NCBI GenBank assembly: GCA_020832005.1
Contig: JAFIFN010000011.1
Coordinates: forward strand, 1-47,773
DNA length: 47,773 nucleotides
Source of the DNA: Gammaproteobacteria bacterium
GTDB taxonomy: Bacteria > Pseudomonadota > Gammaproteobacteria > Steroidobacterales > PWYM01
Direction: 5' to 3'
The notes under the pieces were generated by a model. It was not told where the DNA came from and searched no databases. It worked only from the letters and a program-made list of their open reading frames with translations. The first letter of the stretch is position 1. Every line of letters starts with the position of its first letter. Of the stretch, positions 6,264-10,976 are shown piece after piece. Both the position numbers and the translations under genes were made by a program.

Positions 6264-7199
6264 CTACCAGCGCGTGGTGCCGCCCAGCACTTCGGCCAGC
6301 GTTGGACCGTCCCAGGCATCGAACCAGTCGCGGATCAGCCGATGGGAGATGGACATTCCGGGCGGCACGCGGATGCGACCATTGACGATGTCCTCGCGTG
6401 CAAACCAGCCGGCATCGGCAAGTTCGCCGTCATTGAGCTGGATGTCCGTGCTCTGGGCCTGCGCCGTGAACCCCAGCATCAGCGAAGACGGGAACGGCCA
6501 GGGCTGTGAGCTGTGATAGCGCACCTCGCCGACCCGGATGTTCGTTTCTTCCTCGACTTCACGTGCAACCGCATCCTCGAGACTCTCGCCGGGCTCGACG
6601 AATCCGGCAATCGTCGAATAGCGCTGTTCCGGCCAGGTGGTCTGGCGACCCAGCAGGCAGCGCTCGCCATGCGTGACCAGCACGATGATGGCCGGATCGA
6701 CGCGTGGAAACAGTTTGCGTCCATCGGGGGCAGCGAGCACATGGCCACCACTGTCCACGACCAGCGGATCACCGGTCATGCTGCAGAACCGGTGATGCGT
6801 TCGCCAGCCGATCATCGCCTTGGCATAGGCGAGGATGGCGGCCTCGGCCGGGTCCAGCCGCTGACCGACCTGCCACAGGTCGACGAATTCCCCATCCATG
6901 CCCTCGGGTGGTGTGTCCAGGGGCAGGGCGAATACGGCGCGATCCTGGTAGAGGCCCAGGAATACCGCGGTGTGTGCGTCGGGCTCACAGCCCAGCGTCA
7001 CCAGCTGCGCGCGTTGCAGAAAACGGGCCCTAGGGGCTTCCAGGCTTGCCACCAGGCAACGATCGGCATGCACCGGCACAAACAGACTGCGTTCATCCGC
7101 CAGCGCCGCACTCAGCCAGGCGGCATCCTGACGCAGGCGACTGGCGCGATCGAGGTAGCCCCCGGCAAAGTGATTCGCCGGTTCCGGGCGCCGCGCCAT
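6264..7199 (-). CDS. nudC: NAD+ / NAD-capped RNA diphosphatase NudC, without the usual zinc cysteines
   Basis: 311 residues. The Nudix box is complete: Gly199 starts GFVEPGESLEDAVAREVEEE, and the NudC-specific signature SQPWPFPSS follows at residues 231-239. Known role: NudC hydrolyses NAD(H) to NMN(H) and AMP and removes NAD caps from bacterial RNA. The part that normally forms a four-cysteine zinc ribbon reads RFCSMTGDPL, then GGHVLAAPDGRKLFPRVDPA. Only one cysteine (Cys139) remains, although the spacing and the FPRVDP end of the ribbon are kept. The start follows the rraA-like stop after a single base, so the two are probably co-translated. Confidence 0.92.
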   Translation of the reverse strand: MARRPEPANHFAGGYLDRASRLRQDAAWLSAALADERSLFVPVHADRCLVASLEAPRARFLQRAQLVTLGCEPDAHTAVFLGLYQDRAVFALPLDTPPEGMDGEFVDLWQVGQRLDPAEAAILAYAKAMIGWRTHHRFCSMTGDPLVVDSGGHVLAAPDGRKLFPRVDPAIIVLVTHGERCLLGRQTTWPEQRYSTIAGFVEPGESLEDAVAREVEEETNIRVGEVRYHSSQPWPFPSSLMLGFTAQAQSTDIQLNDGELADAGWFAREDIVNGRIRVPPGMSISHRLIRDWFDAWDGPTLAEVLGGTTRW

Positions 7200-7200
7200 G

Positions 7201-7701
7201 TCAGCTCACGAGCTTGCGTTCGCAAAGCACGATGCCATCAGCATCGGCATACAGCCAATGCCCCGGCGTGAACGTCGCCTCGCCAAAGCGCAGCGGCACA
7301 TCCGCCTGGCCCTGCCCGGTTCTGGGGCCGCGGGCGGGGACTGCGGCCAGCGCCATGATGCCGACCGGCATCCCGGCCAGCAGTTCGGTGTCACGCACGC
7401 AGCCGTGCACGACGATGCCCGACCACTCGTTATCAATGGCAAGCTTGGCGAGCTGGTCGCCTACCAGGGCCACGCGCAGCGCGCCGATGCCATCGACCAC
7501 CAGGACATTGCCATGCCCGGGGGTTTCCAGCATCGCTCTGACCATGGAATTGTCTTCATGGGTGGAAACTGTGCGCAGCGCGCCGCAAAAATGACGACGC
7601 CCGCCGAAGTGACGAAACAGGGGGGCGACGACCTGCAGCTCGGCGGCATGCTCGTCAGACAGGTCAGCAGTTCTGAAGATCGGTGTGTCGGCGCGGGTCA
7701 T
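7201..7701 (-). CDS. rraA: RraA-family protein (RNase E regulator / HMG aldolase fold)
   Basis: 166 residues. The sequence has FGGRRHFCGALRTV, LVVDGIGALRVALVGDQLA, NEWSGIVVHGCVRD and GHWLYADADGIVL, which track RraA along its whole length. RraA of E. coli binds RNase E and inhibits RNA decay; related proteins are divalent-metal aldolases or decarboxylases. Here the Arg-Asp pair of the aldolase active site is kept (Arg103-Asp104), whereas E. coli RraA, from memory, lacks that aspartate, so enzyme activity is possible. The start is at 7701 because AGGA lies six bases upstream; an in-frame ATG at 7743 lacks this. It precedes nudC by one base. Confidence 0.85.
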   Translation of the reverse strand: MTRADTPIFRTADLSDEHAAELQVVAPLFRHFGGRRHFCGALRTVSTHEDNSMVRAMLETPGHGNVLVVDGIGALRVALVGDQLAKLAIDNEWSGIVVHGCVRDTELLAGMPVGIMALAAVPARGPRTGQGQADVPLRFGEATFTPGHWLYADADGIVLCERKLVS

Positions 7702-7806
7702 GGTGGTTCCTGTATGGCGATTCAGGCGCCAAGGGTATGACAAAACACCGCGCAGGACAGTGACAGCGGTGGAAGCCGGCCGACCACGCCGGGGGTTCCG
7801 GCCAGC

Positions 7807-8391
7807 TCAGGCAGGCAGTGGCGCAGCTGCAGCGTTGGCGAAGTGCGCCGCGGGGAGCATCAGGCAGCCGGGACACTGCTCTTCGTCGAGTGCGAGCAGG
7901 TCGCGTACATAGTGGGCCGCGCAATGCGGACAGGTCTCCAGCGCCAGCTCATCGCCCGCCCGCAGGCTGGCGAGCAGGTTGGAGGCCCACTCGATCGACA
8001 GCAGCGGCGGCTGCTGTTCGCCGTGCAGGTGCAGATAGCGCTCATAGGCCCGACACAGGCGCCGACCGGTGTCCAGGCTGCCTGCCGGGACACGGCCAGC
8101 GCCATCGAGCAGCCCGCCGCCGACGAACGCCGCCGCCAGCGAGGCGGCATGCAGGCGATGCAGCGGGGTTTTCACGAACAGCGCCACCTGGGAGGGGGTG
8201 CGCCCGCGGCGGCGCCGAACTTCGTTGCCCGGACTGTGTTTGAAATAACTGCCGTAGAGCCGGCGAATGCGGTCGTCCGACAGCCCGGTGAACTGGCGGA
8301 TGGTCCCGGTTCGGGCCTCGTGGCCGATCAGGCGCAGGGCAAGCTCATGACGGGCCCGCTCGCTGCGGTAACGATCGTCGGTGGTTCTCAT
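7807..8391 (-). CDS. FlhC-like transcriptional regulator
   Basis: 194 residues. The N-terminal helices (HELALRLIGHEARTGTIRQ, then TGLSDDRIRRLYGSYFKHSP) match the DNA-binding part of FlhC. The middle (CRAYERYLHLHGEQQPPLLS, then IEWASNLLASLRAG) matches its core. The C terminus has the zinc-binding set Cys154, Cys157, Cys173, Cys176, spaced CX2C-X15-CX2C as in FlhC. Known role: FlhC binds DNA with FlhD as the FlhD4C2 master activator of flagellar genes. The start at 8391 is preferred because GGAG lies nine bases upstream; longer in-frame starts run through the AT-rich promoter region. It is transcribed away from a FlhD-like gene, not in the usual flhDC operon. No flagellar genes are in view, so its target is unknown. 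Confidence 0.8.
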   Translation of the reverse strand: MRTTDDRYRSERARHELALRLIGHEARTGTIRQFTGLSDDRIRRLYGSYFKHSPGNEVRRRRGRTPSQVALFVKTPLHRLHAASLAAAFVGGGLLDGAGRVPAGSLDTGRRLCRAYERYLHLHGEQQPPLLSIEWASNLLASLRAGDELALETCPHCAAHYVRDLLALDEEQCPGCLMLPAAHFANAAAAPLPA

Positions 8392-8452
8392 AGGCGACAT
8401 CTCCGGGTCCGATTTCACAACTGGCCAATTTGCAGAAATACAGTACTGGATG

Positions 8453-8482
8453 CCATATATGGGCCAGAATAACCATATATGG
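8453..8482. promoter_or_regulatory. Twin palindromic operator candidate between the flhC-like and flhD-like genes
   Basis: CCATATATGG occurs twice, at 8453-8462 and 8473-8482. Each copy is a perfect 10-base palindrome, and the copies start exactly 20 bases apart, about two helical turns, so both face the same side of DNA. They sit in the 134-base AT-rich gap between two divergent genes in otherwise GC-rich sequence. This is the layout of an operator pair controlling both promoters. No clean -10/-35 pair could be assigned in either direction. Confidence 0.55.
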
Positions 8483-8525
8483 TAATTAAGGGCAAAAATA
8501 ACCGCACAGCGGACAGGAAAACGCC

Positions 8526-9113
8526 ATGCAGCCACCCCTCGCAGAGACCTCCCCCCTGGCCCAGATCACCGAACTCAATCGCCTGTTCCTGAGTCTGCTG
8601 GCTGCCCTGGAGACCACGCCGGAACAGCCCGCGGACCGGCTCAGCCTGGGCCTGGACGAACAGCAGCGCGCGGCCCTGCTGGCCTTGTCTCCACAGTGCC
8701 TTGATACGCTGACCAACGCCCCGGTGGCGCTGTTTCGCCTGCCCTTGAGTCGCCCGCAGCCAGGCGATCACGCCGGCTGTGAAGCGTGGCTGTCGGTGCG
8801 CGCCCATCACGCGCGCCTGGCATTCGCCACCGCGGCCCTGTCGGTGATGTGGCATATGCTGCGCAGCGCGCCGGACTGGGCACGGCTGGGGTTCGGCCTG
8901 GGGGCGCGACAGCTGCTATGGCTCAACAACGTGCCGATCTCGGCGCTGCCGCAGCTGGCCGTGCCGGCCGCGGAGGGGCTGCGCGTGCGCTTCACCCGCC
9001 GCGGAGTGTTCTGGCCAAGAGTGCTGCTGTTCGCGGCCCGCGAAGACTGCGAGCAACTGCGGCTGGCCGTGGCGGCTTCCGTGCACCTGGCCAGCGCCCA
9101 GCAGCGCAGCTGA
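8526..9113 (+). CDS. FlhD-like protein with two FlhD-type units in one chain
   Basis: 195 residues. Residues 11-76 read like FlhD: ITELNRLFLSLLAALE, then LSLGLDEQQRAALLALSP and LFRLPLS. FlhD is normally about 105-120 residues and forms a dimer. Here a second, weaker unit seems to follow at about 93-160: AALSVMWHMLRSAPDWARLG, then FGLGARQLLWLNNVPISALPQ and GLRVRF. Helix lengths and the RLG...LL.L...L..L...RF spacing match the first unit. The start has AGGAAA seven bases upstream. It lies divergent to the flhC-like gene. FlhD4C2 is the known complex; that this protein partners the FlhC-like regulator is inferred from the pairing. The tail after 160 is unassigned. Confidence 0.6.
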   Translation: MQPPLAETSPLAQITELNRLFLSLLAALETTPEQPADRLSLGLDEQQRAALLALSPQCLDTLTNAPVALFRLPLSRPQPGDHAGCEAWLSVRAHHARLAFATAALSVMWHMLRSAPDWARLGFGLGARQLLWLNNVPISALPQLAVPAAEGLRVRFTRRGVFWPRVLLFAAREDCEQLRLAVAASVHLASAQQRS

Positions 9114-9189
9114 GCCCACGCGGCGCTACAATGGTGTGCTTCGCCGGCCTGCCAGGACGGCAGCGCCAGTATCAGGACACCTGGGTGAC

Positions 9190-10131
9190 ATGGACGCACT
9201 GCGGCTGGAAAACCTGCGCAAGACCTACCCCAATGGCGTCGAGGCGCTCAAAGGCATCGACCTGACGGTCGAAGAGGGCGATTTTTTTGCGCTGCTTGGG
9301 CCGAATGGCGCCGGCAAGACCACCTCGATCGGCATCATCACCTCGCTGGTCAACAAGACCGCCGGCCGCGTGGTCGTATTCGGTCACGATATGGATCGAG
9401 AGCGCGAGGCTGCCAAGGCCTGCATCGGCGTCGTGCCGCAGGAAGTCAATCTGTCGATGTTCGAAAAGCTCATCGATATTGTTGTCAACCAGGCGGGCTA
9501 TTACGGCGTGCCTGCGCGGCTTGCCAGGCAACGCGCCGAAAAATACCTCAAGGCGCTGCACCTGTGGGATCGGCGCACTGACATTGCACGCAACCTCTCC
9601 GGTGGCATGAAGCGCCGACTGATGATTGCGCGTGCGCTGGTGCATGAGCCGCGGCTGCTGATCCTCGATGAGCCTACGGCCGGCGTGGACATCGAGATTC
9701 GCCGTTCCATGTGGCAACTCATGCGCGCCATCAACGAAGCAGGAGTGACGATCATCCTGACCACCCACTACCTCGAAGAGGCCGAGAGTCTGTGCCGCAA
9801 CGTCGCAATCATCGATGACGGACGCATCGTCGAGAACGACCGGATGACGCGCGTACTGCGCAAGCTCCATCACGAGACCTTCGTGCTGTCGCTGGAAGAG
9901 CCCATCGATGCGCTGCCGCAACTCGACGGCTACACGACGCGCCTGCGCAACGAGCACGAGATCGAGGTGGAGGTCACCCGCGACCAGAACATCAATCAGC
10001 TGTTCAGGCTGCTCAGCGAAAAAAACCTCAACGTGCACAGCATGCGCAACAAGGCCAACCGGCTCGAGGAACTGTTCCTGCGCCTGGTGGAGAACAAGCC
10101 GGCCAACACAAGTCAGGGGCCGCAGGCATGA
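9190..10131 (+). CDS. yadG: ABC exporter ATPase, YadG type
   Basis: 313 residues. Walker A GPNGAGKTT at 37-45, signature LSGGMKRR, Walker B LLILDEPTAGVD and switch histidine in TTHYLEEAE are all intact. A C-terminal regulatory segment of about 90 residues ends in NKANRLEELFLRLVE. The protein and its partner match E. coli YadG/YadH, an uncharacterised type-2 exporter pair. The start at 9190 places the ATP-binding domain directly at the N terminus; an upstream in-frame ATG at 9136 adds only a low-complexity leader. The stop overlaps the permease ATG by four bases. TACAAT at 9127-9132 may be a -10 element, but no -35 was recognised. Confidence 0.92.
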   Translation: MDALRLENLRKTYPNGVEALKGIDLTVEEGDFFALLGPNGAGKTTSIGIITSLVNKTAGRVVVFGHDMDREREAAKACIGVVPQEVNLSMFEKLIDIVVNQAGYYGVPARLARQRAEKYLKALHLWDRRTDIARNLSGGMKRRLMIARALVHEPRLLILDEPTAGVDIEIRRSMWQLMRAINEAGVTIILTTHYLEEAESLCRNVAIIDDGRIVENDRMTRVLRKLHHETFVLSLEEPIDALPQLDGYTTRLRNEHEIEVEVTRDQNINQLFRLLSEKNLNVHSMRNKANRLEELFLRLVENKPANTSQGPQA

Positions 10132-10976
10132 ACCGGGCCGCTGCCAGGGAAGAGGCGCGCGCCGCGGATTTCGCCCGAGAGTCGGACCAGGTGAAGGCCG
10201 AGAGCCTGCTGGCGATCAACCTCATTGGTCTGCGTACCATCATGCGCAAGGAGATCAAACGCGTCAGCCGGATCTGGGTGCAGACCATAGTGCCGCCGGC
10301 GATCACGATGTCGCTGTATTTCGTCATCTTCGGCAGCCTGATCGGCCGGCGTATCGGCGAGATGGAAGGCATGCCCTACATCGCCTACATCGCGCCGGGA
10401 CTGATCATGATGGCCGTGATCACCAACTCCTTTTCCAACGTCGTGTCTTCGTTCTTCGGCGCCAAGCTGCAGCTTTATCTCGAGGAGATGCTGGTCTCGC
10501 CGCTGTCCACGGCAACCATCGTCGTGGGCTACATGGTCGGCGGCATCTTCCGCGGGCTGGCGGTGGGTGCGCTGGTGACGGTGGTGGCCCTGATGTTCAC
10601 GCGCCTGAGCATCGTGCATCCCTGGATCACGCTGTCGGTGGTGGTGCTGGTGGCGGGCGTGTTCTCGATGGCGGGCCTGCTCAATGCAATCTTCGCCAAG
10701 ACCTTCGACGACATCTCGATCGTGCCGACCTTCGTGCTCACCCCGCTGACCTACCTGGGTGGGGTGTTTTTCTCCATCTCGCTGCTGTCGCCGACATGGC
10801 AGGCCGTGGCCATGGCCAATCCGATCCTCTACATGGTGAACGCCTTCCGCTACGGCGTACTCGGTATCTCGGATATCCCCATCGCGGTGGCTTATTCACT
10901 CATCATCGGGCTGTTCGTTGCCCTGTTCTCGCTGAACATGTGGCTGTTGTCCAAAGGGCGCGGAATCCGCAGCTGA
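10128..10976 (+). CDS. yadH: ABC-2 type permease, YadH type
   Basis: 282 residues with six predicted membrane helices. Diagnostic segments shared with E. coli YadH include RIWVQTIVPPAITMSLYFVI, FAKTFDDISIVPTFVLTPLT and YLGGVFFS, and the protein ends KGRGIRS. The N terminus is about 26 residues longer than in E. coli and is rich in Ala, Arg and Glu; it may be an extension or an over-long start, but the ATG overlaps the yadG stop by four bases, which favours this start. It works with YadG to export an unknown substrate across the inner membrane. Confidence 0.92.
   Translation: MNRAAAREEARAADFARESDQVKAESLLAINLIGLRTIMRKEIKRVSRIWVQTIVPPAITMSLYFVIFGSLIGRRIGEMEGMPYIAYIAPGLIMMAVITNSFSNVVSSFFGAKLQLYLEEMLVSPLSTATIVVGYMVGGIFRGLAVGALVTVVALMFTRLSIVHPWITLSVVVLVAGVFSMAGLLNAIFAKTFDDISIVPTFVLTPLTYLGGVFFSISLLSPTWQAVAMANPILYMVNAFRYGVLGISDIPIAVAYSLIIGLFVALFSLNMWLLSKGRGIRS

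Follow-up and report, generated by a model that had tools for sequence, protein, structure and literature searches.

A tandem FlhD protein encoded head-to-head with an FlhC homologue in Steroidobacterales: a probable FlhDC-like transcription factor at a shared palindromic promoter

FlhDC is the textbook regulator of flagellar genes, and in E. coli FlhD is part of a DNA-binding complex. An open reading frame at 8526–9113 (+ strand) of the window, by which we mean the whole stretch of 47,773 nucleotides analysed here (contig JAFIFN010000011.1, from a gammaproteobacterial genome of the order Steroidobacterales), raises the question of whether two FlhD units can be carried in one chain and, if so, what such a protein would regulate. 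A preliminary description had proposed an FlhD-like first half (residues 11–76), a second half (residues 93–160) repeating it, and a single-chain FlhD dimer that would be a new architecture for the master regulator.

The frame, which begins with ATG and encodes 195 amino acids, is a real and conserved gene, homologues being present in each of the genus's four other genomes and in further families of the order. Searched alone, its product matches no family in Pfam or NCBIfam, does not reach the gathering score of PF05247, and gives only noise with phmmer against the PDB; as a single sequence it shows FlhD weakly in its N-terminal half (16.2 bits) and not at all in its C-terminal half (6.4 bits, against 7.4 bits for the best shuffle). 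As these single-protein searches came back empty, family profiles were used, and it is on the family that the evidence for a tandem FlhD rests. Profiles of the N and C halves, built from 118 sequences each, both aligned in register with canonical FlhD (hhalign score 51.8, P 1e-10, and score 37.0, P 6e-7, respectively) and also with each other (score 26.9, P 1.6e-5), whereas no reversed profile scored above 10.2 and the top scores among 200 column shuffles were 15.3–18.5, so that the repeat is not due to chance. We also tested whether the second half might have no relation to FlhD or might match some other family: against 177,635 distinct PDB sequences the C-half profile (A5) alone gave Cupriavidus FlhD (8J56, E=2.9e-9) as its best match, followed by 1G8E (E=5e-4), and the one non-FlhD match, also at E=5e-4, is to a repeat-built protein in which no single stretch is significant.

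Profiles of the whole protein, searched against the same 177,635 sequences, had FlhD as their sole significant matches (8J56 at E=1.3e-6 with profile A3 and at 3.9e-10 with profile A2, columns 4–85 of A2, corresponding to unit 1, matching PDB FlhD at E=3.9e-10). A 167-position model of the family matches canonical FlhDs with E down to 1.5e-10, and these align either to positions 1–78 or to about 74–155, i.e. to either half. Among individual proteins, 16 of 38 diverse members match the Pfam FlhD model at E<=1 (best 4.3e-7), and in one relative (G019) the model matches both halves of the same ORF at E=0.028 each. Complete homologues are tandem, like the 195-residue window protein and unlike the single, homodimerising FlhD of ~100–120 residues. 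The profiles show, and the structure model supports, what we read as two FlhD units fused head to tail, an arrangement of which our search of the open-access literature found no description.

The AlphaFold2 model of the protein (pLDDT 88.9, pTM 0.85) fits this reading. Unit 1 (residues ~10–80; 8553–8765, +) is predicted to comprise a long helix carrying the invariant Asn18 (residues 10–30), two short helices (45–52 and 56–63) and a strand (70–71). Unit 2 (residues ~91–194; 8796–9107, +) repeats this order of helices (91–114, 116–123 and 127–134, 138–150) and has a strand at 153–154, and, as a complete FlhD, it also retains the terminal helices (162–171 and 175–194). The two strand segments both align with the FlhD segment C65-H-F-R-F, which forms the dimer contact, and, as the model contains no other strands, we infer that they pair with each other. 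In FlhD dimers the two Cys65 residues are disulfide-bonded (PMC3510510); the equivalent positions in the window protein are Ala68 and Leu152, which could be expected if a peptide link substitutes for the disulfide. A Foldseek search with the model gave no significant match, E. coli FlhD (2avu_B) ranking 29 with E=1.6, prob 0.47 and TM by target 0.51. Structural support is therefore partial. The model is consistent with an intramolecular FlhD pseudo-dimer and with the boundaries first proposed for the two halves (11–76 and 93–160), and the FlhD-like first half, its repetition in the second half and the single-chain dimer that they would form find support in the in-register profile matches.

Head-to-head with the FlhD-FlhD gene lies a second gene (7807–8391, − strand; 194 aa, start MRTTDDRY), passed over in the preliminary description, whose product qualifies by sequence and predicted fold as a distant FlhC homologue. 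The window protein itself scores below the Pfam cut-off (PF05280, E=7e-4, 19.8 of 27 bits; NF009365, E=7e-5), which is exceeded by the FlhC-like proteins of 21 of the 59 relatives. Searched against the PDB, the profile of this family finds FlhC at E=8.6e-13, and the three best Foldseek matches of the AlphaFold2 model (pLDDT 87.5) are all FlhC, with E between 8e-7 and 2e-5. An HTH-like TGLSDDRIR core is invariant in the family, and so, in 77 sequences, is a Cys4 cluster (Cys154/157/173/176) that would form a putative zinc cluster.

Loci carrying the pair were collected by searching the 59 relatives with FlhC and FlhD profiles and then the loci themselves iteratively with HMMs, and a GTDB scan added 80 more (MAGs, mostly labelled Woeseiaceae or Gammaproteobacteria), giving a combined set with the FlhD-like protein in 119 loci and the FlhC-like protein in 120. 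The FlhD-like gene always adjoins the FlhC-like gene in the loci examined, and the two are divergent in 117 of the 119 loci that have both. Of the remaining two pairs, one is co-directional and the other was scored as convergent, its stop-to-stop frames overlapping. The neighbours of the pair are housekeeping genes and not flagellar ones. Directly behind the FlhD-FlhD gene, and co-directional with it in 103 of 104 loci with a match, stands the gene for a DrrA-type ABC transporter ATPase (9136–10131, +, likely start 9190), and next to this an ABC-2 type permease gene (10128–10976, +) whose product scores above the cut-off of NF011648/PRK15066, which we take to be the YadGH type. On the other side, nudC (NAD(+) diphosphatase; 6264–7199, −) lies behind the FlhC-like gene and is co-directional with it in 98 of 101 loci with a match, and rraA (ribonuclease E activity regulator; 7201–7743, −) follows the FlhC-like gene in the window and at 16 further loci. 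The ATPase and permease genes on the one side and nudC on the other thus each accompany the pair at about 100 loci. These flanking genes may merely be stable neighbours of the pair. One single-contig genome of the order (G031) has two copies of the pair (L051 and L052), and in one copy the FlhC-like protein is very diverged.

The intergenic regions between the divergent genes share the palindrome ACCATATATGGT (10.3 bits, vs 3.0–4.8 in shuffled controls). In the window it is represented by two boxes, A (8470–8485; the palindrome TAACCATATATGGTAA, 18.9 bits) and B (8450–8465; ATGCCATATATGGGCC, 14.6 bits), which lie 20 bp apart. Among the loci the dominant spacings between palindromes are 31, 20 and 51 bp, near whole numbers of helical turns, and the density of palindromes in the shared promoters is 333 to 2500 times that in the rest of the loci. 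Box A is the sole site with 0–1 mismatch to the 12-mer ACCATATATGGT in the 4.18 Mb genome from which the window derives, and in another genome (G005) the 12-mer at 0–1 mismatch is likewise found solely at the pair's own promoter. As the strict site is confined to that promoter, it points to autoregulation; the boxes resemble an autoregulatory operator, with the pair as the putative binder. The genome-wide search used the strict 12-mer only, which looser sites would escape, and it otherwise gave few matches, in several genomes no commoner than the control pattern, and no evident common gene among them. A scan of the intergenic region for sigma-70 promoters found nothing. At one locus (L228, G052:C2) operator-like boxes (at about 1499 and 1628) are placed upstream of a DUF6502 gene and at its beginning, and in that genome the gene is a candidate for a second target.

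We consider it likely that the fused FlhD and the FlhC-like protein together bind the palindromes of their shared promoter and control their own genes, the ABC-2 transporter and nudC, and that the system is not mainly flagellar. One FlhD-FlhD chain would be the equivalent of the E. coli FlhD homodimer and, with the divergently encoded FlhC homologue, would make up a two-protein transcription factor, the probable complex being two fused FlhDs and two FlhCs in place of FlhD4C2. In the shared promoter, such a complex would bind groups of two or three ACCATATATGGT-type palindromes spaced by two or three turns of the DNA, and in this way could determine both its own abundance and the expression of the two flanking units, the transporter and nudC, whose synteny with the pair is conserved.

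Alternatively, the palindromes could be bound by another regulator, with the pair acting elsewhere in the genome on looser or different sites. This would agree with the decay of the palindrome in three of the five members of the genus (L032–L034) although both genes are intact, unless the site has changed there together with its binder, as it may have. It would also agree with the motifs of AcaCD and SetCD, which are unrelated to each other and to that of FlhDC (PMC4207636; PMC4344509), so that the motif of an FlhDC-like regulator is not predictable from homology. We regard this alternative as unlikely, as the box occurs almost nowhere but in this promoter, and for a site found once in the genome the regulator encoded at that place is the simplest candidate reader.

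A further question is whether, in this order, the pair serves as the genuine class I master regulator of flagella, that is, a fused FlhDC driving class II promoters. The FlhC-like gene occurs in 208 of the order's 246 genomes (165 of the 179 good ones); at the same threshold, none of 271 genomes from the class's other orders has it. FlhA is present in 121 of the 246. Cross-reading the two lists by hand gave approximate counts of ~115 genomes carrying both genes, ~93 carrying the FlhC-like gene without FlhA, 6 having FlhA but not the FlhC-like gene, and 32 lacking the two. That the FlhC-like gene accompanies FlhA in ~115 of 121 genomes speaks for a flagellar master regulator, as do the FlhA and flagellins encoded in the window genome and the absence, at the curated cut-off, of canonical FlhD from the 59 relatives. 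On the other hand, ~93 of the 125 genomes of the order without FlhA (~74%) also retain the FlhC-like gene, which makes a purely flagellar role for the pair unlikely; the neighbours of the pair are not flagellar, and the flagellar contig of the window genome holds no operator with 0–1 mismatch. We therefore find this explanation quite improbable, and the role of master regulator suggested in the preliminary description is not established by these data, given that about three quarters of the genomes without FlhA retain the FlhC-like gene and that the strict operator in this genome is restricted to the pair's own promoter. Outside the order, one genome (G303) has four single-unit FlhD-like paralogues (L075, L087, L090 and L091), at least one of which is overlapped by an FlhC-like ORF.

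That FlhD-FlhD has lost its function in a DNA-bound complex and acts alone, or as an antagonist titrating the FlhC-like protein, might explain why divergence is so much faster among the FlhD-like than among the FlhC-like sequences (mean column identity 37% vs 71%, the latter in A4), but is very improbable given its constant place beside the FlhC-like gene in the loci examined, the FlhD pattern retained by both of its halves, and the membership of E. coli FlhD in a DNA-binding complex.

The transcription factor that we favor, composed of FlhD-FlhD and the FlhC homologue, resembles FlhD4C2 of E. coli and Cupriavidus necator (PDB 2AVU, 1G8E and 8J56) in that the partner has the FlhC fold, a Cys4 cluster and an HTH-like motif, both halves of FlhD-FlhD show the FlhD pattern, the genes are adjacent, and the predicted strand contact falls in the segment used for FlhD dimerisation. 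It differs in carrying two FlhD units in one chain and in lacking Cys65. Unlike flhD and flhC, which form an operon, the two genes are divergent; furthermore, the window proteins fall under the family cut-offs, the operator sequence is different, and the FlhC-like gene is also retained in genomes without flagella. What emerges is an FlhDC-like system that is nearly universal in a large order whose members are mostly uncultured and in part lack flagella, and its fused FlhD, conserved operator and fixed neighbours make its targets directly testable. As a natural single-chain FlhD dimer, the protein would also let each FlhD position of the complex be mutated separately to learn its role.

Non-flagellar FlhDC-like activators are already represented by AcaCD of IncA/C plasmids, SgaCD/FlhDC-SGI1, and SetCD of SXT/R391 ICEs, and in this respect the pair described here is similar. 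AcaCD differs from the pair in being borne on a mobile element, encoded in an acaD-acaC operon and activating conjugation; for the pair, a tblastn search with the window proteins gave no plasmid match, and its housekeeping neighbours and conservation throughout the order are not those of a plasmid or ICE gene. AcaC and AcaD have been described as weakly FlhC- and FlhD-like, with AcaD at 22.8 kDa, in a report whose account of AcaD, in the portion available, contains no mention of a repeat (PMC4207636). We find that AcaD of pRA1 (L242:22679-23284, 202 aa) contains two FlhD stretches, at residues 18–95 and 106–182 (Pfam E=4.2e-6), so that the fused architecture is not unique to the protein described here. 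In a tree of single units (113 columns, with long branches) the C halves of the order group together (99/92), the N halves do so weakly (52/91), and the two AcaD halves are each other's sisters (99/85), which makes the duplications look independent. A common origin of the two tandems was considered and is unsupported by this tree of 113 columns and long branches, in which the halves of each group stand apart from those of the other. AcaD, the known switch for IncA/C plasmid transfer, is thus apparently a tandem FlhD by independent duplication, an architecture of which we found no description in the literature.

We see about equal grounds for and against a more general proposal, namely that tandem duplication produced single-chain FlhD dimers on at least two separate occasions, once in the chromosomal regulator of the order and once in AcaD, in both cases within an FlhDC-like regulator whose role is not specifically flagellar, and that fusion lets the two units diverge, giving a fixed asymmetric complex on helically phased palindromes.

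A more distant FlhDC-like regulator is BisDC of ICEclc, in which BisC carries DUF2857 and BisD is a ParB-domain protein (PMC7423338), and which, unlike the pair, sits on a mobile element. One FlhD-like ORF (L086:1495-2136) that we had considered as another tandem FlhD was rejected on finding that it encodes a DUF2857 (BisC-like) protein. The N-terminal part of this protein matches FlhD weakly (E=0.015), 3 of 38 FlhD-like proteins of the order match DUF2857 weakly, and DUF2857 may itself contain an FlhD-like unit.
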